From NCBI RefSeq assembly GCF_007744675.1, contig NZ_CP036269.1, positions 3,513,546 through 3,577,545 on the forward strand: a stretch of 64,000 bases of DNA, written 5' to 3'. The DNA comes from Gimesia alba (GTDB lineage: Bacteria; Planctomycetota; Planctomycetia; Planctomycetales; Planctomycetaceae). Of this stretch, positions 4,290 to 24,020 are shown piece by piece. Within the stretch, counting starts at the first letter, position 1; the number at the start of each line of letters is the position of its first letter. The notes beneath the pieces were generated by a model that was not told the DNA's origin, ran no database searches, and saw only the letters and a list, made by a program, of their open reading frames with translations. Made by a program: the position numbers and the translations under genes.

Positions 4290-5216
4290 TTAGAGCTCGT
4301 GTTTCCAGCCTGAGTCTTCCAGGGAAGTTTGAGAACCGTCGGGGTGTTGAAGAAAGGCGGTTTGTCTGCTGGTGACTTCTCCGATATGCGTCAATTTGAT
4401 CGAGAGCGGATTTTGATTGAGTAACTGTTTTCCATCTTCGGGAGAAACCGTAAACAGCAGTTCGAAGTCCTCGCCGTCAGAGAGCGCATGCTGCAGGCGA
4501 GTTTGTTTTGGCTCATCGGCTGAGATCCTGTTGCTGATCGGAATCGTAGTGGCATCCAGAATCGCACCGACGTTGGATTCGCGGAGAATGTGATTGAGAT
4601 CAGAGGCGAGACCATCGCTGATATCAATCATCGAATGGAGGGAGACTGTCTGGTTCAGGGTCGAGGCTTCATGGATACGCGGAGTAAATGAAAGATGGTG
4701 GTCCGGCAGACTGCCACCTAATTCACCCGTCACGAAGATCCAGTCGCCGGGCATGGCACCGGGACGTTTGACGGACTTGGATTGAGGGGCTGTCCCGATG
4801 ATGGCGACATTGATTACCAAAGGGCCGTCCCAACTGTTTGTGTCGCCGCCAATCAGTTGGATTTGAAATTCTTTTGCGAGATTGATGATCCCCTGCATGA
4901 CGGCCTTCGCAAATTCCGGGCCTTTTGATTTCGGCAAGGCGAGGCTGATGAGAGCCGAGTGAGGCTGTCCTGCCATCGCGGCGATATCACTTAAATTCAC
5001 AGCCAATGCTTTACGACCGGCCCGTTCAGGCGTTGCTGGTGGGAAGGTGAAGTGGGTGCCTTCCATCAGCATGTCTGTTGCAAATAACATTTCACTGTTC
5101 AGGGGTGGCTGCAGAATGGCAGTGTCGTCACCAATGCCGATGAGATTCGCTTTTGAGTTAGGGCATTGCTCACGAATCCATTGAATGAGATCAAATTCAT
5201 GAAATGAGGGGGCCAT
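4290..5216 (-). CDS. thiL: Thiamine-monophosphate kinase
   Basis: Phosphorylates thiamine monophosphate to thiamine pyrophosphate, the last step of vitamin B1 cofactor synthesis. The 308 residues fit the family. Visible features are the N-terminal GIGDDTAIL metal/ATP motif, FATDMLMEGTHF, the NLSDIAAMAG segment, GGDTNSWDGPLVINVAIIG, and the C-terminal MIDISDGLASDLNHI with SDGEDFELLF. It is convergent with rpoN, 22 bp from its stop codon, with no hairpin between them. Confidence 0.95.
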   Translation of the reverse strand: MAPSFHEFDLIQWIREQCPNSKANLIGIGDDTAILQPPLNSEMLFATDMLMEGTHFTFPPATPERAGRKALAVNLSDIAAMAGQPHSALISLALPKSKGPEFAKAVMQGIINLAKEFQIQLIGGDTNSWDGPLVINVAIIGTAPQSKSVKRPGAMPGDWIFVTGELGGSLPDHHLSFTPRIHEASTLNQTVSLHSMIDISDGLASDLNHILRESNVGAILDATTIPISNRISADEPKQTRLQHALSDGEDFELLFTVSPEDGKQLLNQNPLSIKLTHIGEVTSRQTAFLQHPDGSQTSLEDSGWKHEL

Positions 5217-5361
5217 GCGATTAGTCTCTGTATCGACAGAAATCAGGGGTGAATGTAATTACCGGAGTGTAAGATAATTAAGGGTATCATAGCAGGCAAC
5301 GCTTGTTTTTGGCGAGTCTCAGAGGTCGCTGGATTTTGTAGTCGTTCGTATAGATAGAAAG

Positions 5362-5396
5362 AGCCCGGCACACATCAAAAAGATATGTGTCGGGCT
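5362..5396 (-). terminator. Hairpin terminator downstream of the HtrA gene
   Basis: Inverted repeat AGCCCGGCACACAT / ATATGTGTCGGGCT around an A-rich loop lies about 33 bp past the stop codon of the minus-strand HtrA gene. Read on the minus strand, the stem is followed by CTTTCTATC, a weak pyrimidine tract. The stem is strong and has only two mismatches. Confidence 0.7.
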
Positions 5397-5428
5397 GATG
5401 GATCAGTTTGATAAACTGAATGATGGAT

Positions 5429-6826
5429 CTAGGGTGTGCCGGTGAGGTTCAGCGGCAGATGTCCGTAAAGGGTTTCGTTCTTACGGAGAATGTAAAACTT
5501 GAGCGGGTTAAAAGTGGGAAGTTTTGAGTTGCTCAGCACATAAGAGATGTTACTGAGATTCACTGTTTCCCAAATATGAAGCCCGACCAGAATATCGCCT
5601 CTTCGCATTCCGTTCATGGCGGCAGGGCTTTGTGGGCGAACTTCTTCAATCAGCATGCCACCCTCATAGCGTGGGTTGAGCATGTGTTTTTGAGCTTCTG
5701 TAATTTTCGTAATACGAATCCCGAGGACTTCCCAGGTCTTTTCAAGAGTCGGGTCGTTCGAGATTTCATTGTTTTGTGCTCGTACAATGGGAGCACTCAC
5801 AGGTGTTGTGCGGGCAACCGTGGTGGAGTCGGCCAGTGTGATTTGAACTGACTGAGTTTTCTCGTCGCGTCGAATCAGAAGATCAATCGTATCGCCTGGC
5901 TTGTGTCCCATGAAGGCACGTTCCAGGTCGGCACGGTCTACGACATTCACAGAACCGGCTTTCATGACGATGTCGTCTTTTTTGAGTCCTGATTTTTCTG
6001 CAGGACTGTCTTTCGCGGGGTTACCGAGCACCAGCATCTGCTTGTCACCCTGTTTGATGTCATTGGCCAAAATGCCATGGTATGTGTGATCGATTAACTC
6101 GGTGCTGATCAAGTCGGCGATGATTTTTCGTGCGTCATCAATGGGAATTGCAAAACCGATTCGTTGGGCACCGGCTCGGATCGCAACGTTGATGCCGACG
6201 ACTTCCCCGTCCAGATTCAGCAAGGGGCCGCCACTGTTACCGGGGTTGATACTGGCATCGGTCTGGATTAGATTTTTGTATGATTGCTTTTCGTTGACTT
6301 CGACATCGCGAGACAGCGAACTGATAATTCCGGAAGTCACGCTATGTTCGTATCCAAATGCGTTTCCGACTGCGATGACGGTTTCCCCCAGCATTAAATC
6401 TGATGAGGTTCCCGGCGGCATCACAGTGAGTTTCTTCGTCGGATTGATTTTGATGATCGCCAGATCTTCGCTCTGGTTCGAAGAAATGATCCGCGCGTTG
6501 TAGGTGCTGCCATCCATCATGGTCACGCGGAGTGAATCGACTCCATCAATGACATGATGATTGGTGACAATATACCCTCGGGGATCAACAATGATTCCTG
6601 TGCCCATGCCATTGACTTTTCGGCTTTTTCCGGAGCCGAATAGCGAATCTTCTGTACGTGCGGTTTTCTCACTGTGGATATTGACCACAGAAGTTTTAGC
6701 ACGTTCAATAGCGCGAACCAGGGGTGTTTTGCGTACATCGGACGCTATACTGTTCTCGCAGAATGCACCTAAGCCTGTGACAAGCATCATGGTGCACAGT
6801 GTGAGTTTATAAAAGCACTTAATCAT
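5429..6826 (-). CDS. HtrA/DegP-like periplasmic serine protease with PDZ domains
   Basis: Envelope quality-control protease. The ATG at 6826 places a signal peptide first (MIKCFYKLTLCTMMLVTGLG); a longer frame to 6907 would bury it behind 27 charged residues. The S1C catalytic triad is present: His in TNHHVIDG (about residue 92), Asp in EDLAIIKI (about 119) and Ser in NPGNSGGPL (about 197). A first PDZ domain (around DSPAEKSGLKKDDIVMKAG) and a second one (SPAAMNGMRRGDILVGL) follow. Two PDZ domains are typical of DegP/DegQ. The gene is monocistronic with its own terminator. The exact DegP/DegQ/DegS subtype cannot be set from the sequence. Confidence 0.92.
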   Translation of the reverse strand: MIKCFYKLTLCTMMLVTGLGAFCENSIASDVRKTPLVRAIERAKTSVVNIHSEKTARTEDSLFGSGKSRKVNGMGTGIIVDPRGYIVTNHHVIDGVDSLRVTMMDGSTYNARIISSNQSEDLAIIKINPTKKLTVMPPGTSSDLMLGETVIAVGNAFGYEHSVTSGIISSLSRDVEVNEKQSYKNLIQTDASINPGNSGGPLLNLDGEVVGINVAIRAGAQRIGFAIPIDDARKIIADLISTELIDHTYHGILANDIKQGDKQMLVLGNPAKDSPAEKSGLKKDDIVMKAGSVNVVDRADLERAFMGHKPGDTIDLLIRRDEKTQSVQITLADSTTVARTTPVSAPIVRAQNNEISNDPTLEKTWEVLGIRITKITEAQKHMLNPRYEGGMLIEEVRPQSPAAMNGMRRGDILVGLHIWETVNLSNISYVLSNSKLPTFNPLKFYILRKNETLYGHLPLNLTGTP

Positions 6827-7170
6827 TCGGTGGCTCAGTTCATCGAGGTGGCGGTGCGATTGCTCGCGTGTCCTAGTTCCATCTACCGACCGGAGACGAT
6901 CCATCAATGCTCCGTAGAACTGGATATCGGAATGAACTCTTTTGTGGCTTAATCATGAACGCACTCTCTGTAATAGTTTACCTAGTTGACAGGGCGTCAG
7001 AATGGGTAAAGTGTATCGATTGTGCGGCTGGATATTTCAGCAATTTAAATGTGCAAATGAAAATGTCTCATGAAATAATGTTAAGAAGAGTCTGCGAAAC
7101 CGTGATGAGTGTCAATTTTGCGTAAGTGGAGCCCTGAACTCATCCTGAGAGGGGCTACTTGAGTTGAATT
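6827..7170. other. Intergenic stretch between two minus-strand genes
   Basis: This stretch holds the upstream region of the HtrA gene. A 72-codon plus-strand frame exists at 6907-7125 but has no ribosome binding site and no recognisable composition. I see no RNA gene, repeat or convincing promoter. Confidence 0.5.
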
Positions 7171-8268
7171 TTACAGTTTCTTGAAAATCTCAAGTTTCTT
7201 TTTCAATTCATTTTTTTGATCTGTGGGTGCTTTTTGAATTGCCTGCGTGAGGGTTTTCACTGCTAAATCCATTTGCTGGTTTTCACGATAGGCCGTTGCC
7301 AGTGTATCGAGCATATTCCAGTCAGCCGACCGAGTGAGCTCGCAAGCTTGTTCAGCATGTGTCACTGCTACTTTGGGATCATGGTACTTCGTATCAGGAC
7401 AAGTGGCAAAGAGCCAGGCTAAGTCATTATGCGCTGTTGCTGAGACGGGATTGAGCTCCAGTGCTCTCTGATAGTCCTTGATGGCTGATTCGAACTGTTG
7501 CCTCTGTTCCCAGAGTGAAGCCCGATTGCTGAATACTTCGGATACGAATTTGTTGACTTTGATCGCCTGATTAAAATCCTGGAGCGACCGATCGAGTTGA
7601 TTCAGGTCGCGATACACAATTCCTCGCGCGTTCAGTGCCGAGACCATTTGGGGGTTCAGTCGAATTGCCTCGTTAAAGTCAGCGATCGCTTTCTGCGGCT
7701 GGTTGTTTTCAAAGTAAATTAAGCCTCGGATATGAAATGCGTTGGCGCTCGAGGGATTGAGCTGAATGGCCTGGTTCAGGTCTGCCAGTGCTTTCGCGTA
7801 CTCCCCTTTCAGACGCTGGATGTTTCCCCGGTTTACATAAATATGTGGGTTGTCTGTCTTGAGTTTGAGCGCTGCATCAAAATCAGAGAGAGCCTGGTCA
7901 TTTTTTTTGAGAACCAGAAAAGCGATCCCTCTCAGGTGATAGCGTTCGGCCGTCGGTTCTGTTTTCAAAGCCTCATTTAAGAACTGGATCAGTTCTTCGG
8001 GAGATCGGACATCGGTTTGTTTGATCCAGCCACCTAGTAAAGGAATCCAGAGCCACTCCTTATTGTTTTGTGTAATCAGAACGACTTCACCAGGATTGAC
8101 TTTCTGCAGCGTACCGCCACTGGTTTTGATTTCCGCATCTTTTGCTGTCACGATTTTGATGCGGGGCTGTATTTTCGGGGCTTCTGCACCAAAAGCGGAA
8201 ACTGAACAAAAAGCCATTTCGCAGATGAGTAAAACCAGCAGTGGATGAGTTTTGAATTGAGTTGGCAT
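7171..8268 (-). CDS. Secreted TPR-repeat protein with N-terminal SH3-like region
   Basis: 365 residues. A signal peptide (residues 1-28, ending near SVSAFGAEA) is followed by a short beta-rich region (about 35-90, with VNPGEVVLITQ and WLWIPLLGGWIKQ) that resembles a bacterial SH3-like or GW module. At least six tetratricopeptide repeats follow from residue 100, with recurring A-x-x-D-[FLY]-x-x-A-[IL]-x-L-[NK]-P units. TPR arrays mediate protein contacts, and the export signal puts this one in the periplasm. No catalytic domain is seen. Partners are unknown; the flanking HtrA gene is separated by a terminator. Confidence 0.8.
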   Translation of the reverse strand: MPTQFKTHPLLVLLICEMAFCSVSAFGAEAPKIQPRIKIVTAKDAEIKTSGGTLQKVNPGEVVLITQNNKEWLWIPLLGGWIKQTDVRSPEELIQFLNEALKTEPTAERYHLRGIAFLVLKKNDQALSDFDAALKLKTDNPHIYVNRGNIQRLKGEYAKALADLNQAIQLNPSSANAFHIRGLIYFENNQPQKAIADFNEAIRLNPQMVSALNARGIVYRDLNQLDRSLQDFNQAIKVNKFVSEVFSNRASLWEQRQQFESAIKDYQRALELNPVSATAHNDLAWLFATCPDTKYHDPKVAVTHAEQACELTRSADWNMLDTLATAYRENQQMDLAVKTLTQAIQKAPTDQKNELKKKLEIFKKL

Positions 8269-14640: not shown

Positions 14641-15073
14641 AATCGAAGAAATGATCCAGCAAGAACGATTTCCCGGATACCTTTCGTTCTGGGATCGCTG
14701 TATTCTGACTGCTTAAATGCGTTTCGTGAATTTTGATTCTCGGGACAAGTTTTTCATACACATTAGACTCAAGTTCGGGTGTAAACTGTCTTATTGATAT
14801 CTCTTCGAAAATCGAACAAAAAAAGTGATTTCGTTGCCAACAGTTGCTAGCCCTGCAGCGAATGGCTGTTAATCAACTAACCGATCTCTCGAAAAGGAAA
14901 ATAACCATGCCTGTCTTCTTTGAAATTCTCATCATTGCTGTGGTCGTCTGCGTTTTCGGCACTGGCGTTTTTCAACGTTTTTGTACTGGTACCCGAAAAT
15001 GAATAGCGAGTTCGTTCGCTTTTGTCATCTAATCAACTCTTACGTATTCCAGTACATGCCTTAATAGCACCGG
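14641..15073. repeat. Left direct repeat bounding the accessory island (with internal insert)
   Basis: 14641-14834 matches 22164-22360 with most bases identical by eye. Shared landmarks are CGATTTCCCGGATAC, GACTGCTTAAATGCGTTTCG, CACATTAGACTCAAGTTC and AAAAAAGTGATTTCGT. The match resumes at 15026-15073 (CTAATCAAC ... ACGTATT ... CAGTACATG). In the right copy the two parts are adjacent; here about 190 bp lie between them, including a 31-codon membrane peptide gene. The pair flanks the IS element and the RiPP-like operon. Confidence 0.85.
14907..15002 (+). CDS. Small membrane peptide, 31 aa
   Basis: Short frame encoding MPVFFEILIIAVVVCVFGTG plus an 11-residue basic tail ending in RK. A good Shine-Dalgarno sequence (AAAAGGAAA) lies about 8 nt before the ATG. 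One transmembrane helix covers residues 3-22. It lies entirely inside the segment that interrupts the left direct-repeat copy. The function is unknown. Single-helix peptides of this size can be toxins, regulators or membrane-complex subunits; nothing here decides between them. Confidence 0.5.
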   Translation: MPVFFEILIIAVVVCVFGTGVFQRFCTGTRK

Positions 15074-15260
15074 TCTCGCTGACTCCAAGACATGTTCTGA
15101 TAACTAGTGAAGTGTCATTTTTAAATTTTGGGTTGATAGATATCACCAGAGTGCGACAACGGAGCGCGTAAACAACACCCCCAACCCTCAATTTCTAGCT
15201 TTACAAAGCACTAGTACGTTTTGCGAATTCAGACTCGACCAAACAATTCTAGAGGGCATC

Positions 15261-15662
15261 TCAAAACCTTTTTAATAGTGTAAATAAACACCCAAGAATT
15301 ACAAAGCTTTCGTAGAGGTAATCGTGATATTCCCAGCGCGTGACAATGCGACGATAGTTGTGGAGCCAGGCAATACTGCGTTCCACAATCCAACGTCGTT
15401 TGAAGCGTGGAAGCTTTCGACCATCTTGCGTCGGCGGTTTGACTCTCGATTTTCGATGCGGGCAGATCAGATCGATATTCTTTTCCATCAGCCGTTTGCG
15501 CAACGAGTCCGAATCGGCGGCTTTGTCATAAACAAGTCGCTCGGGTTGTCGATTTTGCAATGTGATTTTTTCAAGCAGCGGTTCGATCAGCTTGACTTCG
15601 CTACGACGGGCCGATTCTGTGTCGATCGCCACAGGTGTCCCGTGACGATCGACAAAAATCAT
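15261..15662 (-). CDS. IS5-family transposase, C-terminal frame (OrfB)
   Basis: Downstream half of the DDE transposase. It supplies the second Asp (LVYDKAADSD) and the Glu of the triad within RWIVERSIAWLHNYRRI, the Y-(2)-R-(3)-E-(6)-K region typical of IS5. It is in the -1 frame relative to OrfA and overlaps it by 4 bp. Slippage at the A7 run upstream gives a continuous chain, so this frame is unlikely to be made alone. Confidence 0.88.
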   Translation of the reverse strand: MIFVDRHGTPVAIDTESARRSEVKLIEPLLEKITLQNRQPERLVYDKAADSDSLRKRLMEKNIDLICPHRKSRVKPPTQDGRKLPRFKRRWIVERSIAWLHNYRRIVTRWEYHDYLYESFVILGCLFTLLKRF

Positions 15663-16105
15663 GACCTTTGTGCCTTTGCCACGACGAGTCGGGCCAACTC
15701 TTCTACCCCTTTTTTTGCCGAGGCAAAAGTGCCATCAGCAAAGGTTTCCGAGAAATCAATCTGGCCAGCATCATCCATTCGTTCCAAGATGATTTGCCAG
15801 GCAGATAAGAGCCGCCCTTCGATCGTCCATTGCTGGAAACGTCGATGGCACGTCGCTTTTGAGGGATACTCTCTTGGTAAATCTTTCCATCGTGCTCCTG
15901 TCACCAAAATCCAGAGAATGCCTTCCAGGCAATCTCGTGGATGGGCTTTTGGACGTCCTCCCTTTTTGGAAGGGGGAGTCCAGGGAAACAGTTTTGCGAC
16001 TAAAGACCATTGTTTATCGGTCAAAACGACCGGGCGTTCCGTCCTGGACGCTGTTTTTGTGGAAACCCGTTTTCGTTTGGGCCACCAGACCAGCGTCATA
16101 TACAT
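15659..16105 (-). CDS. IS5-family transposase, N-terminal frame (OrfA)
   Basis: 148 residues. It contains the DUF4096-type helix-turn-helix region (LTDKQWSLVAKLFPW ... KKGGRPKAHPR) and the first catalytic Asp in ETFADGTFASAKKG. Around 15709-15715 the minus strand reads GCAAAAAAAGGGG. A -1 slip there turns AKKG into AKKRGRRVGPTRRGKGTK, the conserved IS5 segment that runs into OrfB. This is a standard way for this IS group to make a fused transposase. Confidence 0.88.
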   Translation of the reverse strand: MYMTLVWWPKRKRVSTKTASRTERPVVLTDKQWSLVAKLFPWTPPSKKGGRPKAHPRDCLEGILWILVTGARWKDLPREYPSKATCHRRFQQWTIEGRLLSAWQIILERMDDAGQIDFSETFADGTFASAKKGVEELARLVVAKAQRS

Positions 16106-16400: not shown

Positions 16401-17459
16401 TCAGTTTTTAGTGTCAGGATAGTTGTTGATGATCACAACAATTGGGCGATCGTTATTTTCTGTAGGTGGCTCTGGAGGGGGCAATTCTGATTCCAACTGC
16501 TTTCGTCGATTGATTTCAGACATCAACGTGTGAGCCTCCAATAGATCTACTCGGTCGACTCTAGGACGCAGTCGGTACTGAAAATAATCGGGATTTTCGG
16601 GGAGCCCAAACGTTGAAAGTTCTTCCATCGGGTAAAAAACTGAGTGGCTCTTCTCGCCGATCTTGAACGTGATTTCCCCTACCGGTGTATCTGGAAGTAT
16701 CTCGGGAATGGAGTCCGCATCGATCGCTGAATCGTCTAAAATTAGGGAACGAAGAAGATCTTTCAGTCTCGCAACGGAATCGCCATCGAATTCGCGTTCA
16801 ATCGAGCGCGATTGATTGTTGGGCATGTCACTCAAAATCGATTTAGCGGTACGCATCGATTCATCCAAACGTGTCTCAAAGTGCAACTTCTTTTCCGGAA
16901 ATCCGCCACTGACAATCAACTGGATGTTTATTGGCCTTTCTATGTCCAATGGCCGAATATCGCTAGGCCGACGAGCGGGAGGCGTGTCTCCTTCAGTATC
17001 GTCTACCAAGGACAACAGGCGATCGACAACCGGGCCTGTTGGCGTTTCCATTACCGTGCCAGTATCGACAGGGCTCCGCAAAGAGCACTCAGGAAAGGGA
17101 TAGTGGTACTCGTCTTTCAAGCCAATCATGTGGCCAAATTCGTGTGACGCAACGTGCCCAGTATCGAACTGATCCCAACGCTTCATATGGCTTCGGCTGA
17201 CTGATGGGGTGACTTCAACGACATAGTGTTCGTCATGGTCGACGAACTCCACCTTGAATCGAAACCTCTGGTCGTCACTCCTATTCCATTTCGACAGAAT
17301 CCCACGACGCCATTCCTCCTTGAGCGTCTCGATTTTGTGAGACGAGATGGAGGAGTCGGGCCGGAGTTTGATTCTGACCGAGATAAGGTCCCCATCACGG
17401 TGAAAACGTACTCTCCAGTTGTAGCGACAGTCCCACCTGCGGTAATTGATTTCAGGCAT
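16401..17459 (-). CDS. Metzincin-type zinc metallopeptidase of a RiPP-like operon, with precursor-like C-terminal tail
   Basis: 352 residues from the ATG at 17459 (GTTGGA lies about 10 nt upstream; a TTG at 17483 would add 8). The N-terminal beta-rich part (RRWDCRYNWRVRF) leads to the zinc site HEFGHMIGLKDE (His106, Glu107, His110, Asp116), which fits HExxHxxGxxD of metzincins; VDTGTVMETPTG supplies a plausible Met-turn. There is no signal peptide. After a Pro-rich linker (ELPPPEPPTENNDRP) the chain ends in IVVIINNYPDTKN, which closely matches the end of the candidate precursor (IRVIIDNYT). It is the last gene of the operon, 208 bp after the precursor. It may cleave the leader, act on an outside target, or carry a modified tail itself; these are inferences. 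Confidence 0.8.
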   Translation of the reverse strand: MPEINYRRWDCRYNWRVRFHRDGDLISVRIKLRPDSSISSHKIETLKEEWRRGILSKWNRSDDQRFRFKVEFVDHDEHYVVEVTPSVSRSHMKRWDQFDTGHVASHEFGHMIGLKDEYHYPFPECSLRSPVDTGTVMETPTGPVVDRLLSLVDDTEGDTPPARRPSDIRPLDIERPINIQLIVSGGFPEKKLHFETRLDESMRTAKSILSDMPNNQSRSIEREFDGDSVARLKDLLRSLILDDSAIDADSIPEILPDTPVGEITFKIGEKSHSVFYPMEELSTFGLPENPDYFQYRLRPRVDRVDLLEAHTLMSEINRRKQLESELPPPEPPTENNDRPIVVIINNYPDTKN

Positions 17460-17691
17460 CGTGTAATTTCCAACGTTGATCAAAGAACCACATTTGCGAA
17501 ATCAGCCCTCAGGATAAATTCTGCCAACCAACAATTTGGAAATCGTCGACAACCGAGAATAAAAGATTACTCACCAGACACTCGAACGAATCACCCACAT
17601 AAAACTCGCACTTCAAGAGAGACCTACAGACCTGTTTGCTTCGATATCGAGTAGCAACGGACTTCACGAAGATCGCAGCCATCACTCGCTG

Positions 17692-18024
17692 CTAGGTGTA
17701 GTTATCAATGATCACGCGAATCTTGATTTTCGCCGTAGTTGCGTCACCTGCAATTCCAGCCTTGTTTCGGTCGAGATTACGGGTCAAAACTTCCGAAAGC
17801 GTGTTGTCCTTGATTGTTACCGTACCATCGTCAGAGATTGCGAAGGAGTCTTCCAGTTCAGCAGCTACCGGTAGATTCACTTCACTGGACTCTCGTTTCA
17901 GTTCAAGCGGCCGAACGACCGGCTCCTGTGGCGGCAGTTCGCCCCCGTCACACTTCCCAACCTGTTGCAATGCTTTTTCGATTGCGTCGTTAGCTTCTTC
18001 CAGAGTCTTGCGAATATCACTCAT
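17692..18024 (-). CDS. Candidate RiPP precursor peptide, 110 aa
   Basis: A short gene with a strong ribosome binding site (AAGGGGAAAATTC before ATG) between the modification enzymes and the peptidase. The N-terminal half is a charged helix (MSDIRKTLEEANDAIEKALQ) followed by a Pro/Glu linker and an acidic stretch with ISDDGTVTIKDNTLSEVL. The C-terminal end, TAKIKIRVIIDNYT, is rich in beta-branched residues, which are plausible targets for radical C-methylation or beta-hydroxylation. The leader does not look like Nif11 or nitrile-hydratase leaders, the usual partners of this radical SAM family. The precursor role is inferred from size, position and the tail shared with the peptidase. Confidence 0.65.
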   Translation of the reverse strand: MSDIRKTLEEANDAIEKALQQVGKCDGGELPPQEPVVRPLELKRESSEVNLPVAAELEDSFAISDDGTVTIKDNTLSEVLTRNLDRNKAGIAGDATTAKIKIRVIIDNYT

Positions 18025-18109
18025 GAATTTTCCCCTTGGTTAGTAGTATCGATAAACCTTACATTAGCATATGGCTGTGAACCCGTCAAATGTATCCATG
18101 CGTCCTGAC

Positions 18110-18631
18110 TCATTGATTCGGCAGTCCGCTGGCTCGAAATGCTAGTTTTGCACGAGGGGAAAAACGTCCGGAATGCATCCCGAACCAAGGCATCGATTTT
18201 CCGTCAAAATACTCACGGCCTAGACGGACATATTGTTCCAGAAAGTTCGCGAACGCGACTGTGGCCAAAGATGTGGAATCACACGGATCCAGAGTCGTTT
18301 CCTTACCGTCGAAACGATTGATATAAATCACGCGACCTTCGTCGGTTTTTACATCCGACATGGAACAAAATGCGTAGACGAGTGATTCCGCGTCCTTTCC
18401 TATTATCTTCCGTACGAATTGCCGATGATCCGTCGAGAGCCAGTCTCGATCAATCGATTTTCGTCCGTAAACGGAATGGAACAACCCCGCGTCGCAAACA
18501 TGATCTGGTTCCTGCCAGAATCGCAAAAGTTCATACGTACCTAAGAAATGTTCGAGCGCAGTTCCCATGCTGTGCTGTGAATCCGCACCTAGTGTTCGAA
18601 GAAACTCAAGCTTTGCTTCAAGGTTGACCAT
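18110..18631 (-). CDS. DUF6817-like protein of the RiPP-like operon
   Basis: 173 residues. The segment SMGTALEHFLGTYELLRFW followed by HVCDAGLFHSVYGRK fits the pattern I associate with DUF6817, an alpha-helical family with conserved His and Asp residues that may be HD-like; the assignment is from memory. The C-terminal half is helical. The gene starts 2 bp after the stop codon of the radical SAM gene and is surely co-transcribed with it. No function is established for the family. In this context it could process a small-molecule cofactor or the modified peptide. Confidence 0.65.
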   Translation of the reverse strand: MVNLEAKLEFLRTLGADSQHSMGTALEHFLGTYELLRFWQEPDHVCDAGLFHSVYGRKSIDRDWLSTDHRQFVRKIIGKDAESLVYAFCSMSDVKTDEGRVIYINRFDGKETTLDPCDSTSLATVAFANFLEQYVRLGREYFDGKSMPWFGMHSGRFSPRAKLAFRASGLPNQ

Positions 18632-18633
18632 GA

Positions 18634-20709
18634 TTAAACCACCGAAAAAGCGTAATCTGACAAATCAAACGACAGCTCCGAGCCATTATTGGCCGTAGGT
18701 TGAGAAACAGATCGCACGAGTTCGACGAATGTTTCAAGCGCTGTTCCGATCGGAGCGTGGGACGAGAGGGGCACTGCCAGTGAAAGATACCTGCCATTTA
18801 TCTGGATCATCAAGCGTTTTTCGCAAAATGCTTCTAGGATAGCCAGGATTGTCTCACCCATTGGAGCTTTGAAAACGGAAGCGTATTTGGCTTGGATGGA
18901 GCCGAAGCTCTTTGAGGAATCGCAAAATTCGTAAATCTCTTTAGAAAGCCCGTGCAATACCGTCAGTGGACGCGTCGCAACGTGACGTGTGTCCCAGAGC
19001 AACAAGTACTTACCTTTGGTCATCGCTACAAAGATCGAATGCTCATGGTGGTCACGCCACCGTTTGAGCCCATCGGCGAGGGGCTTGGTGTATCTGGTGA
19101 TCTCGGAGGCGCTATCGGAGTCGAAGTGAAAAAAGTAAGCGGAATTAAATACGTGGTTGTCGTTCATCGCACCCGACTGCCACTTTGAACGACAGCGATG
19201 TAGGAACCGATACGACGGATAGGGTTGAATGTTTTGAAACCCAAGCGAGTCGGCCTCGTTAAAATTTGGGCTGTAACGATCCAGCCGAATCTTTGCGCCT
19301 CCACCAGGTGGTTGCAAATGCTCTAAAGCAGGCGTTAGGCCCGCCATTTCTTCATAGGCTAACTGATCCTCAAAAGGAAATCCCCAAATGATATTCCACT
19401 CCACGTTGATTCCCAGCTCAATTGCCCACTTCAAGAGTTGGATGTTTTGGATCGACGAAACCCCCTTTTTCATCAGCTTGAGCACTAAATCACTGAGGCT
19501 CTCTATCCCGGGCTGGATGTTGTTGATTTTTGCACGTTGAAGACTCTCCAGTTGCTTTCTCGTGAGATTCGCCTTCGTCTCATAAAAGATCGAAAGGTTC
19601 CAAGCTTGATCCCCAAGCCAGGGGACAAAATCATCGAAATATTTCATGCTGAGAATGTTGTCGACGGCATCGACTGATCGTTCCCCGTACTTTTCTATCA
19701 ACTCTTGAAGTTCAGTTGCCGCTCGCGTGTGAGATTTTTGCCGGAACGCCATGTTTGATCCGTTCAAGCCACAAAACGTGCAGTGATGTTTTTCCCCCCA
19801 CCAACATCCGCGTGATGTTTCGAATGCCAACCGCGGTTCAAAACTGAGTTTCCAAGACAAAGCACCGACAGTGTCAAAGTAGTCGTCAAAGTCCGGCGTT
19901 GGTAAGCTGTCCATATCCTGAATCCGACCATTTCCCAACACAGGCAACCGCGCATCCACCCCATCGGTTGAGCAAGTTTTGGAATCGCCTGTCGCTTTTG
20001 AGCAGACAGAGACTCCAGGAATACCCAGGAAATCATGTCCATTTCGACTTCTATCGAGGATATCAAGAAACGCTTGCTCACCTTCACCGGAAACGACCGC
20101 GTCAATACAATCATACATTTCCATCAGTGACTCACCCATTGGCGACTCGACATTCGCACCGCCAAAAATGATATCGATTTCCGGCTGCAGCTCCTTGAGT
20201 TTTTTGGCAAGAGCAAGGGAAGCGAAGTTTTGTTGAAACACCGTTGTGAATCCGACAATCTGCGGGTTGTCGTCCAACACTTTTTCTGCCGCATCGTGGA
20301 TGAATCGCTCCGCCCGAACCTTAGCGACGATCAACTCCGAAACAAAATGATCCAGGCGAGAACAATCGCTCAGGTCATCTTTGGAGTGTTCCCTGGCGTG
20401 TCCGAGCACTACTTGGTGCAAGTAGTTATAGTTGTCCTCGTCGCTTTGATCATTGACAAGACCAGAAAACAACCATTCTCCCGCGAGATCTTGGGTCGCA
20501 GGGAATCCCGATGCGATTTTATTGTAGAGTGTTTCTCCGATTCGTTCTGCAAATTGAAACCCCAGGTGGTGTACGGAAATCCGGTAGCCGGAGTTTCGGC
20601 CAATCGCCGCAAGCAAACCCAAGGCGATGGAAGGACTAAAGAGTGGTCCGAATGGCATGGAGACCAATGCCGCATCAGTACGAGCGATTCCGCCTGATTC
20701 CGTAATCAT
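18634..20709 (-). CDS. RiPP maturation radical SAM protein with B12-binding domain (rSAM/ocin type 1)
   Basis: 691 residues. The N-terminal ~270 residues form a Rossmann-like cobalamin-binding domain (VGFTTVFQQNFASLALAKKL, IIFGGANVESPMGESL, VVSGEGEQAFLDIL). The radical SAM core has SRGCWWGEKHHCTFCGLNG with Cys302, Cys310 and Cys313, the C-x7-C-x2-C spacing typical of ribosomal-peptide maturation radical SAM protein 1. The C-terminal ~100 residues look like a winged-helix or PqqD-like peptide-recognition domain. Characterised relatives are B12-dependent C-methyltransferases acting on peptides. Its ATG overlaps the stop of the upstream HExxH gene (TAATG), so translation is coupled. Confidence 0.85.
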   Translation of the reverse strand: MITESGGIARTDAALVSMPFGPLFSPSIALGLLAAIGRNSGYRISVHHLGFQFAERIGETLYNKIASGFPATQDLAGEWLFSGLVNDQSDEDNYNYLHQVVLGHAREHSKDDLSDCSRLDHFVSELIVAKVRAERFIHDAAEKVLDDNPQIVGFTTVFQQNFASLALAKKLKELQPEIDIIFGGANVESPMGESLMEMYDCIDAVVSGEGEQAFLDILDRSRNGHDFLGIPGVSVCSKATGDSKTCSTDGVDARLPVLGNGRIQDMDSLPTPDFDDYFDTVGALSWKLSFEPRLAFETSRGCWWGEKHHCTFCGLNGSNMAFRQKSHTRAATELQELIEKYGERSVDAVDNILSMKYFDDFVPWLGDQAWNLSIFYETKANLTRKQLESLQRAKINNIQPGIESLSDLVLKLMKKGVSSIQNIQLLKWAIELGINVEWNIIWGFPFEDQLAYEEMAGLTPALEHLQPPGGGAKIRLDRYSPNFNEADSLGFQNIQPYPSYRFLHRCRSKWQSGAMNDNHVFNSAYFFHFDSDSASEITRYTKPLADGLKRWRDHHEHSIFVAMTKGKYLLLWDTRHVATRPLTVLHGLSKEIYEFCDSSKSFGSIQAKYASVFKAPMGETILAILEAFCEKRLMIQINGRYLSLAVPLSSHAPIGTALETFVELVRSVSQPTANNGSELSFDLSDYAFSVV

Positions 20710-21809
20710 TACTTTACCGCCTGTAATCCGTAGACGTACTGAACAACTCGCTCAGGAGTCGCGTTATCCAACAGAATTTCGAGCGCGGCGTCCATGTTTA
20801 TCAGGTTTGACAATTGAGCGTTCAAAACGCGTATGCCTCGCTTCAGGGCAACAACGCGGGACCGAAGCTCGCCAGCATAATCAAGATATTCGTTTGTTCG
20901 AATTGTATGAGTCAACAATTCGATAGTTGCGGTATAGATCAGCATTGCGTGAGACATAACCTGCACGGATCTAACATTGCCCGTTACCGGAGATTGGATG
21001 TCAGCGTGTTCTGCACTAACTTGGAATTCGGGGTGCAGCTCCCAACCTTGCCAAAGGAGCTGATGGATCGATTCGTGAAGTATTGCTTCGGCGATTTGAG
21101 TTTCGTTCATGCCAAAGGCGTTAACGAAAATTACACCGCAATAAGGTGTTCGGCAGTTGAAATGACGTTGAGTGCGTCCTAGGCAGGTTGGCAACACAGC
21201 AATCGTTCCGATGACGCATCGGATTTCGTTTGCCCAAATCTTCGAAAACTCATCGATCAGTGCAAAAGCCTTATGGATTCGGTAGTCGATATCTCGACGT
21301 TCTGTCTCGGTCAATTCTTCAGAGCCAGGTGGGTATTCATCAGCTTCTAAAAAATCATCGAACAAACGCTCGCTCGGGTATAAAATCCAAATGTGATGGT
21401 CGTCACCTGTGTCCAGGCGACTGAGCAAATGAGATTGGTCGTTCAACACACCATCACTTTGCAGGAGAACGCGTCCATGTGAATGGATCAACCGAACGAA
21501 TTGCCCGTTGTGAAACGGAATGTCACTTGGAGAGCATAGGCCACAATGCAGGGCGAGAAGGGTTACGAGATAGTCTCTCTCGGATTCCTCAGTTGGTTGA
21601 GAGAGACGTTTGATGAGCGGAAAATGCTCTGGGTTCGGGATCCTTTTCTGCCGTTGCGAAACAATGTTGTTCCAAGCTGCTTTGAGGATATGAATCGTGT
21701 CAGGGTGAGAAGTGTTCGTGAGCAGAGCATCATCCCAAGCCTTCTCTAGGTTCGCCCATCCGCCGAAAGATGCCGAGTGCTCAGGCTTGTTAGTTTTTAA
21801 GATGACGAT
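20709..21809 (-). CDS. HExxH-motif peptide beta-hydroxylase-like protein, start codon unclear
   Basis: The open frame has up to 366 codons. The motif ILHESIHQLLW (His245, Glu246, His249 in the full frame) and GLCSPSDIPFHNGQFVRLIH fit the HExxH proteins found beside peptide-modifying radical SAM enzymes; several are thought to be 2-oxoglutarate-dependent peptide beta-hydroxylases. The first standard start is the TTG at 21491, yet about 106 protein-like codons lie upstream, back to a TGA at 21812-21810, with no ATG, GTG or TTG. Options are an ATC start behind GGAGAGG, or one extra A in the A5 run at 21794-21798: removing it joins the GTG at 21813 to this frame. First gene of the operon. Confidence 0.7.
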   Translation of the reverse strand: MVILKTNKPEHSASFGGWANLEKAWDDALLTNTSHPDTIHILKAAWNNIVSQRQKRIPNPEHFPLIKRLSQPTEESERDYLVTLLALHCGLCSPSDIPFHNGQFVRLIHSHGRVLLQSDGVLNDQSHLLSRLDTGDDHHIWILYPSERLFDDFLEADEYPPGSEELTETERRDIDYRIHKAFALIDEFSKIWANEIRCVIGTIAVLPTCLGRTQRHFNCRTPYCGVIFVNAFGMNETQIAEAILHESIHQLLWQGWELHPEFQVSAEHADIQSPVTGNVRSVQVMSHAMLIYTATIELLTHTIRTNEYLDYAGELRSRVVALKRGIRVLNAQLSNLINMDAALEILLDNATPERVVQYVYGLQAVK

Positions 21810-22163: not shown

Positions 22164-22407
22164 AATCGCAGAAATTGTTCCAGCCAGTAACGATTTCCCG
22201 GATACTTTTCTTTCTGGGATCGTTGTTTTATGACTGCTTAAATGCGTTTCGTGTATTTTGATACTCGGGATAAGTTTTTCACACACATTAGACTCAAGTT
22301 CTGGTATAAATTGGTGTTAGTGATATCTCTTCGAGAATCGAACCAAAAAAGTGATTTCGTGATCTAATCAACTTATACGTATTGCAGTACATGTCTTAAT
22401 ACCACCC
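22164..22407. repeat. Right direct repeat bounding the accessory island
   Basis: Second copy of the sequence at 14641-14834 plus 15026-15073, uninterrupted here. It runs from AATCGCAGAAATTG through GACTGCTTAAATGCGTTTCG to AGTACATGTCTTAATACCACC. Both copies are in the same orientation, and no coding frame is conserved between them. The remaining non-coding parts of the 21.8-22.6 kb gap show only short internal repeats (GAAGAAGTTA at about 22083 and 22115). Confidence 0.85.
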
Positions 22408-22584
22408 ATTTCGCGAAATGCATGGGGCATATTGATATTGCGTGATCCTGATAGAGAGCAGAGGGGCAACATCCGTTGTCATGTCAGTATTACATGAATA
22501 ATTTTTCCATAGACTCAAGCCTTGGTTAACTATAGTTGACACCATGCAAAACGCTGGTAAATCGAGACGGAATCGATTAGGCCT

Positions 22585-23501: not shown

Positions 23502-24020
23502 ATGATGGCCCACTTTTTCCAGTCAGAAATTGATCGTAATATTTATATTTGGCAGATGTTTCGAGATGGCGGTGTTGCGCTAGTCCATTCTGAATCAATG
23601 CTTCAGAAAATTATCAATGAACTGCACTCCGAGAATTACCTGATTCATGACTGTGAGGTTACCTCTGAAGACAGTGTTTCATTTGAAAAATCGATCAGAG
23701 CAACACTTGGCTTTCCGTCAGGGCAAAAAGATCAGACCAATCTGGATGCACTGAATGATTTGGTTGGAGATCTGGTGTTTCCCAAAGATCGTGCAGGTAT
23801 CGTCGTGGTCACCAGACACATACAAAAGTTACATGAAAAAGAGCCTGGATACCTCCACCAAGTAGCAGATATCTTTGCGAATGCAGCCAGGTATCATATG
23901 TGTCTTGGCCAGCGTTTATTGCTGTTGTTGCAATCTGATGACTCTGAAATACAGTTCGATGTCGTAGGTGGTTTTCGCCCTCATTGGACAATTCGTGAAG
24001 GCCCCTTTTCAAAGAAATAA
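23502..24020 (+). CDS. Barstar-like protein
   Basis: 172 residues. The region from about residue 25 to 130 follows the barstar pattern: a beta strand and helix, LGFPSGQKDQTNLDALNDLV with the typical N-L-D-A-L segment, then an acidic stretch before GIVVVTRHIQ. Barstar relatives inhibit barnase-type ribonucleases, but no barnase-like toxin gene is adjacent, so it could be an orphan immunity protein. The similarity is judged by eye. The ATG at 23502 has GCAGGTGA just upstream. Confidence 0.55.
   Translation: MMAHFFQSEIDRNIYIWQMFRDGGVALVHSESMLQKIINELHSENYLIHDCEVTSEDSVSFEKSIRATLGFPSGQKDQTNLDALNDLVGDLVFPKDRAGIVVVTRHIQKLHEKEPGYLHQVADIFANAARYHMCLGQRLLLLLQSDDSEIQFDVVGGFRPHWTIREGPFSKK

Follow-up and report, generated by a model that had tools for sequence, protein, structure and literature searches.

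Does a run of five genes in the planctomycete Gimesia alba encode a RiPP-type system, and, if so, what is its substrate, and why does the protease at one end of the run carry nearly the same C-terminal tail as that substrate? The window, i.e., the whole 64,000-nucleotide stretch of DNA that was analyzed, contains these genes on its minus strand in the order HExxH enzyme, B12/radical SAM enzyme, DUF6817 protein, 110-residue protein and metzincin peptidase. The coordinates and junctions of the genes bear out the arrangement that had been predicted from an initial inspection of the DNA. The HExxH and radical SAM frames overlap by 1 bp (taATG), the spacing from the radical SAM gene to the DUF6817 gene is 2 bp, and that from the DUF6817 gene to the 110-residue gene is 85 bp. 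The last spacing, to the metzincin gene, is 208 or 232 bp, depending on whether the ATG or the TTG start is considered.

We consider it probable that these genes form a RiPP-type operon, in which the 110-residue protein is the substrate, a TIGR03975 enzyme and an aKG-HExxH enzyme act on its core, the DUF6817 protein is an HD-fold partner, and the metzincin carries a near-copy of the end of the core. We infer the recognition by the enzymes, their chemistry and the order of the steps as follows. The leader would be the conserved block at about residues 47-86 of the precursor, and would dock the enzymes. The core would be the Val/Ile-rich C-terminus of the precursor (AKIKIRVIIDNYT); the TIGR03975 enzyme would modify it through B12/radical SAM chemistry, with C-methylation of Val or Ile as the likeliest reaction, and the aKG-HExxH enzyme would hydroxylate a side chain such as that of Asp107 or Asn108. 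The DUF6817 protein, with its predicted HD fold and probable metal site, may be a helper or a third enzyme. Finally, the metzincin would belong to the system and either cleave the product or be co-modified; that is, its VIINNY tail, which copies the end of the core, would be a second substrate or a built-in mimic of the cut peptide.

The probable precursor and its leader family

The 110-residue protein is encoded at 17692..18024 (-), and its conserved leader block at 17767..17886 (-). Four relatives were initially obtained from loci around the nearest TIGR03975 genes, namely those of Rhizohabitans (locus L002), a Methylococcaceae MAG (L003), a Rhizobium MAG (L005) and Mycobacterium (L007), and in each case the relative adjoins the TIGR03975 gene. 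A sixth family member, of 56 residues, is found on a Niallia plasmid, directly 3' of its radical SAM gene. The relatives are 56-67 residues long, and their similarity covers the C-terminal part of the window precursor, whose 46-residue N-terminal extension is absent from them. Alignment of the block reveals the common pattern L-x3-F-x5-G-x3-I-x4-L-x3-L, in which L57, F61, G67, I71, L76 and L80 are invariant. Most members have a Val/Ile-rich end, as a rule with an aromatic residue at or close to its last position. The locus thus has what characterizes a RiPP operon: a small precursor gene, a conserved leader, a variable C-terminal core and an adjoining modifying enzyme.

In leave-one-out searches among 9,652 ORFs, each member was recovered by the others with E-values from 4e-12 to 3e-4, and ranked directly below the training members; across all runs, no outsider scored better than an E-value of 0.0027. 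A leader profile run over 40 TIGR03975-bearing genomes gave matches in four of them, one each and always at the leader loci; because this profile includes those four sequences, it is the leave-one-out search that constitutes the independent test. The window precursor has no match in Pfam or NCBIfam at an E-value threshold of 1. A comparison of the relatives with known leader models, at a threshold of 5, gave two stray Pfam matches and one stray NCBIfam match, all from the L095 relative, and neither library matches the family to a Nif11 or nitrile-hydratase-type leader. The proposal that the 110-residue protein is the precursor of a new leader class therefore fares well, since the protein is precursor-like and its family is absent from both libraries. 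The same holds for its conservation beside homologous radical SAM genes, the lack of which had been named as grounds for abandoning the proposal: the gene is conserved next to genes with the C-x7-C-x2-C motif in four phyla.

The expectation that other planctomycetes would share the precursor was not supported, as the leader family was found in one of the 392 planctomycete genomes sampled, namely this one. Three leader matches in other planctomycetes (E 0.005-0.015) were rejected as chance, as they span 23-29 positions within open frames of 586-668 residues. A search of plasmids with the window precursor returned nothing.

Several neighboring features of the leader loci were recorded in passing. 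On the Streptomyces plasmid NZ_CP108193.1 (L116), two small ORFs (4459-4689 and 4965-5192) with Cys-bearing cores and look-alike leaders immediately precede a SPASM-type radical SAM gene; one of these leaders scores E 1.8e-6 within the locus and only 0.2 in tblastn. The leader family may therefore serve other radical SAM types too. At the Mycobacterium locus, an asparagine-synthetase-like gene and a gene for an 80-residue peptide (5309-7402) are in the vicinity of those for the leader and the radical SAM enzyme; asparagine-synthetase-like enzymes make C-terminal nitriles in nitrilobacillins (PMC13060819). In Rhizohabitans, a sulfotransferase gene (5363-6253) is located just upstream of the precursor gene, on the same strand.

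The metzincin and the shared C-terminal tail

The metzincin is encoded at 16401..17459 (-), with 352 residues from an ATG, or 360 from a TTG at 17483. It contains HEFGHMIGLKD, which conforms to HExxHxxGxx(H/D), and a Met turn, VMET. The catalytic motif is intact, and the HExxH, Gly and Asp residues are invariant among its relatives, which are few and clearly similar in the catalytic domain alone. The M6, M7 and M10 models score 16.6, 14.9 and 11.2 bits, below their cut-offs of 25, 24 and 22, respectively. No signal peptide is apparent by eye, and a scan of viral contigs with the metzincin gave no relatives.

The metzincin ends in RPIVVIINNYPDTKN and the precursor in KIKIRVIIDNYT. The hexapeptide VIINNY of the former (16419..16436, -) thus corresponds to VIIDNY near the C-terminus of the latter (17698..17715, -), the candidate end of the core. 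When the whole 7.77 Mb genome is scanned with degenerate codons for V-I-I-[DN]-N-Y, two sites match, and they are the ones at these C-termini. The metzincin is also the best match to the precursor tail among 1,321 C-termini (score 27; next 23), and it alone of 1,224 C-termini has 5 of 6 identities to the precursor hexapeptide, figures that are not clean probabilities, because the tests followed the discovery of the motif. We nonetheless regard chance sharing of the tail as unlikely, on account of the adjacency, strand and position of the two copies. The motif ELPPxEP is also common to both proteins; being proline-rich, it was not counted as evidence.

A possible but tentative explanation of the shared tail is that the metzincin is the maturation protease, which frees the modified core from the leader, and whose own unmodified VIINNY tail acts as a pseudosubstrate until the modified peptide competes with it. 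The intact catalytic motif, the membership of the protease in the gene set and the copy of the core end in its tail are all consistent with this explanation, as is the precedent that RiPP clusters can include a dedicated metalloprotease, for example BipI (PMC12707348). The gap of 208-232 bp that separates the metzincin from the other genes argues against it, and so does the absence of the metzincin from the other leader loci. A search for tail sharing at those loci gave no neighbor that stood out. Somewhat less probable, and in our assessment unlikely, is that the metzincin is a second substrate, so that its VIINNY tail, too, would be a target of the radical SAM and HExxH enzymes. This explanation would account for the near-identity of the two C-terminal hexapeptides, which have no further copy in the genome. 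The metzincin, however, is leaderless: a leader hidden in it was looked for, and none was found. The leader would therefore have to act in trans, from the 110-residue protein. The absence of the metzincin from the other leader loci and its lack of a leader also weigh against the RiPP-type reading of the operon as a whole. Modification of the protease tail, if it occurs, would mean that a folded enzyme can serve as a substrate of RiPP enzymes and that the leader need not be on the same chain as the core.

A separate observation concerns a Paraburkholderia plasmid (L092, 7249-8462), in which a gene for a 164-residue protein lies upstream of that of a metzincin relative and overlaps it. A weak resemblance links this protein to the C-terminal half of the window metzincin; BLASTP detects nothing between the two, and 6 of 1,000 shuffles reach their local score. 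The arrangement hints at split and fused forms of the metzincin.

The candidate modifying enzymes and the DUF6817 protein

The B12-binding radical SAM protein, of 691 residues, is encoded at 18634..20709 (-). It matches TIGR03975 (rSAM_ocin_1) with 597 bits, relative to a cut-off of 281.85, over model positions 2-606. The B12-binding domain PF02310 (33.8 bits; cut-off, 32.1) and the Radical_SAM domain are likewise above their cut-offs, and the cysteine triad C302-x7-C310-x2-C313 is exact (CWWGEKHHCTFC). The identity and the motif assigned to this protein in the original prediction are thus upheld. Its gene provides the one TIGR03975 match in the 7.77 Mb genome. No Pfam match to a PqqD-like recognition domain was found at its C-terminus, and radical SAM scans of viral contigs and of phages gave no relatives.

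The radical SAM proteins of the window, L002, L003 and L005 group together in a 100-row tree (support 97), and L004 and L007 join them (support 99). This is a quick tree with long branches, in which L121 is a second copy of L007. The radical SAM genes that have the leader family thus cluster, and L004 is the sole member of the group at which no leader gene was found. Elsewhere, a planctomycete TIGR03975 gene in another genome of the same family (L091, 5286-9977; genome G014) was seen to lie beside a gene for a 77-residue lipoprotein-like protein and a divergent caspase-domain gene.

C-methylation by this enzyme would be in line with its family, as NCBIfam labels TIGR03975 a C-methyltransferase. 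Related TIGR03975 proteins adjoin DUF5825, and PMC12257519 cites a homologous B12 radical SAM/DUF5825 pair as C-methylating in clavusporin; another TIGR03975 gene is found in a pheganomycin-type cluster. Cross-linking of core residues rather than their methylation appears improbable to us in view of the family name and of the C-methylation linked to the DUF5825-paired relatives. Cross-linking does have a precedent in BipD, the B12 radical SAM enzyme of biphenomycin, which forms a biaryl bond (PMC12707348), and several cores of the leader family have an aromatic residue at or near their end; to that extent this alternative counts against the operon reading proposed here.

The aKG-HExxH-type peptide hydroxylase candidate occupies 20709..21809 (-), with 366 codons from stop to stop. 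None of the start codons ATG, GTG and TTG occurs in its frame upstream of 21491. Because similarity to the Rhizohabitans enzyme begins far earlier than 21491, either a non-standard start codon is used, possibly the ATC that follows GGAGAGG near 21803-21809, or the 5' end has shifted. TIGR04267 matches the protein with 22.5-24.2 bits, below the cut-off of 40. With a two-row HExxH profile, the best solved chain is ChlH (E 0.011), with which the HExxH motif and a later His align; both are kept in the Rhizohabitans enzyme. Foldseek searches with a low-confidence model (pLDDT 59) retrieved four chains of 8s5f, with E-values of 4e-5 to 1e-4, and nothing else below 0.001. The model, low in confidence as it is, thus points to the same kind of HExxH hydroxylase partner as was first proposed, as 8s5f is an aKG-HExxH hydroxylase. 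The score below the family cut-off, the low-confidence model and the doubtful start codon are points against the reading of the operon as a RiPP-type system.

The DUF6817 protein (18110..18631, -; 173 residues) matches PF20680 with 84.9 bits, relative to a cut-off of 25.2. Its AlphaFold2 model has a pLDDT of 92 and a predicted HD-type fold, with HS replacing HD. The nearest folds are small alarmone hydrolases, with a best E-value of only 0.006 and a TM-score of about 0.5; the first 25 fold matches are all alarmone hydrolases or Rel proteins, except for four chains of listeria lmo0812. The His-Asp motif is absent, as H52 is followed by Ser, or by Ala or Thr in two relatives. Since H20, H28, H52, E82 and E132 are invariant in 19 DUF6817 sequences, the protein likely carries a metal site. 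DUF6817 was detected in 22 of 149 related genomes, most of which, within the family, have no near TIGR03975 gene.

Known systems, distribution and genomic setting

RiPP-type operons that combine a B12 radical SAM enzyme with an aKG-HExxH hydroxylase are already known from biphenomycin. The operon described here differs in its leader family, its DUF6817 partner and the shared tail of its protease. Like the bip/bpm cluster of biphenomycin, it includes a metallopeptidase next to those two enzymes (PMC12707348, PMC12257519); unlike that cluster, it has no MNIO, arginase, JmjC hydroxylase or TldD peptidase, and its precursor and core are different, biphenomycin having an FHAFRF motif. With TIGR03975 rSAM_ocin_1 systems it shares the full-length family match, the B12-binding domain, the C-x7-C-x2-C motif and the small adjoining precursor gene. 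What sets it apart from them are its HExxH and DUF6817 partners and a leader that matches neither Nif11 nor nitrile hydratase; the pheganomycin-type and DUF5825-paired TIGR03975 proteins, moreover, are on other branches of the tree than its enzyme. The HExxH enzyme resembles the aKG-HExxH peptide beta-hydroxylases (ChlBH/ChlH 8s5f, PflC/PosC, BpmH/BipH) in its aligned HExxH and later His, in its fold match to 8s5f and in its RiPP-type context, whereas its NCBIfam score is under the cut-off and its identity to 8s5f in the structural match is 13-14%. Similarly, small alarmone hydrolases (RelH/SAH) and other HD-fold proteins are the closest in fold to the DUF6817 model, from which they are distinguished by the modest TM-score and E-value, by HD in place of HS and by their genetic context. 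The metzincin, in turn, has the HExxHxxGxxD/H-type motif and Met turn of snapalysin (M7), matrixin (M10) and immune inhibitor A (M6), whereas it falls below all their cut-offs, and nothing in these peptidases corresponds to its C-terminal half or its VIINNY tail.

The locus adds a leader family that the searched libraries lack and that accompanies one branch of radical SAM enzymes across four phyla. It also shows a DUF6817 protein, whose predicted fold is of the HD type, within a RiPP-type operon. The phrase 'RiPP maturation radical SAM' appears in none of the open-access papers searched, and an earlier description of the leader elsewhere is possible.

The distribution of the operon is sporadic. 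Rhizohabitans keeps together the precursor, the HExxH enzyme (32% identity), the radical SAM enzyme (44%) and DUF6817 (39%). A near relative of the radical SAM enzyme is present in 3 of 170 genomes of the order, and the HExxH branch in this one genome out of 246.

As had been predicted, no peptide transporter is evident, by inspection, among the ORFs near the operon. Nor is a leader cleavage site recognizable; both absences count against the proposed reading. A promoter scan gave no more sites than shuffled sequence, and a reading as a defense system was dropped, as PADLOC returned a single stray weak match.

The operon is flanked by direct repeats, with the left copy on its downstream side (14664..14834, +, and a further 60 nt at 15020-15079) and the right copy on its upstream side (22189..22414, +). 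The repeats share 171 nt at 90-91% identity and the further 60 nt at 83%, and have no other copies in the genome. They enclose the operon together with its IS element, an IS4/5-type transposase in two frames (15261..16105, -; PF13340 and PF01609) that adjoins it. The operon was likely acquired by horizontal gain; the G+C content of the operon stretch does not differ from that of the window. That the metzincin is an unrelated neighbor, e.g., a toxin-like protease that arrived with the island, and that its tail is a coincidence, would suit the mobile region marked by the repeats and the transposase, the nearby barstar-like gene and the other leader loci devoid of a metzincin, and yet is improbable given that the gene is adjacent, on the same strand, and carries the tail motif found twice in the genome, the best match of 1,321 C-termini, albeit noticed before it was tested. 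The barstar-like (barnase inhibitor) protein itself, encoded at 23502-24020, close to the operon, is perhaps the product of an orphan immunity gene.
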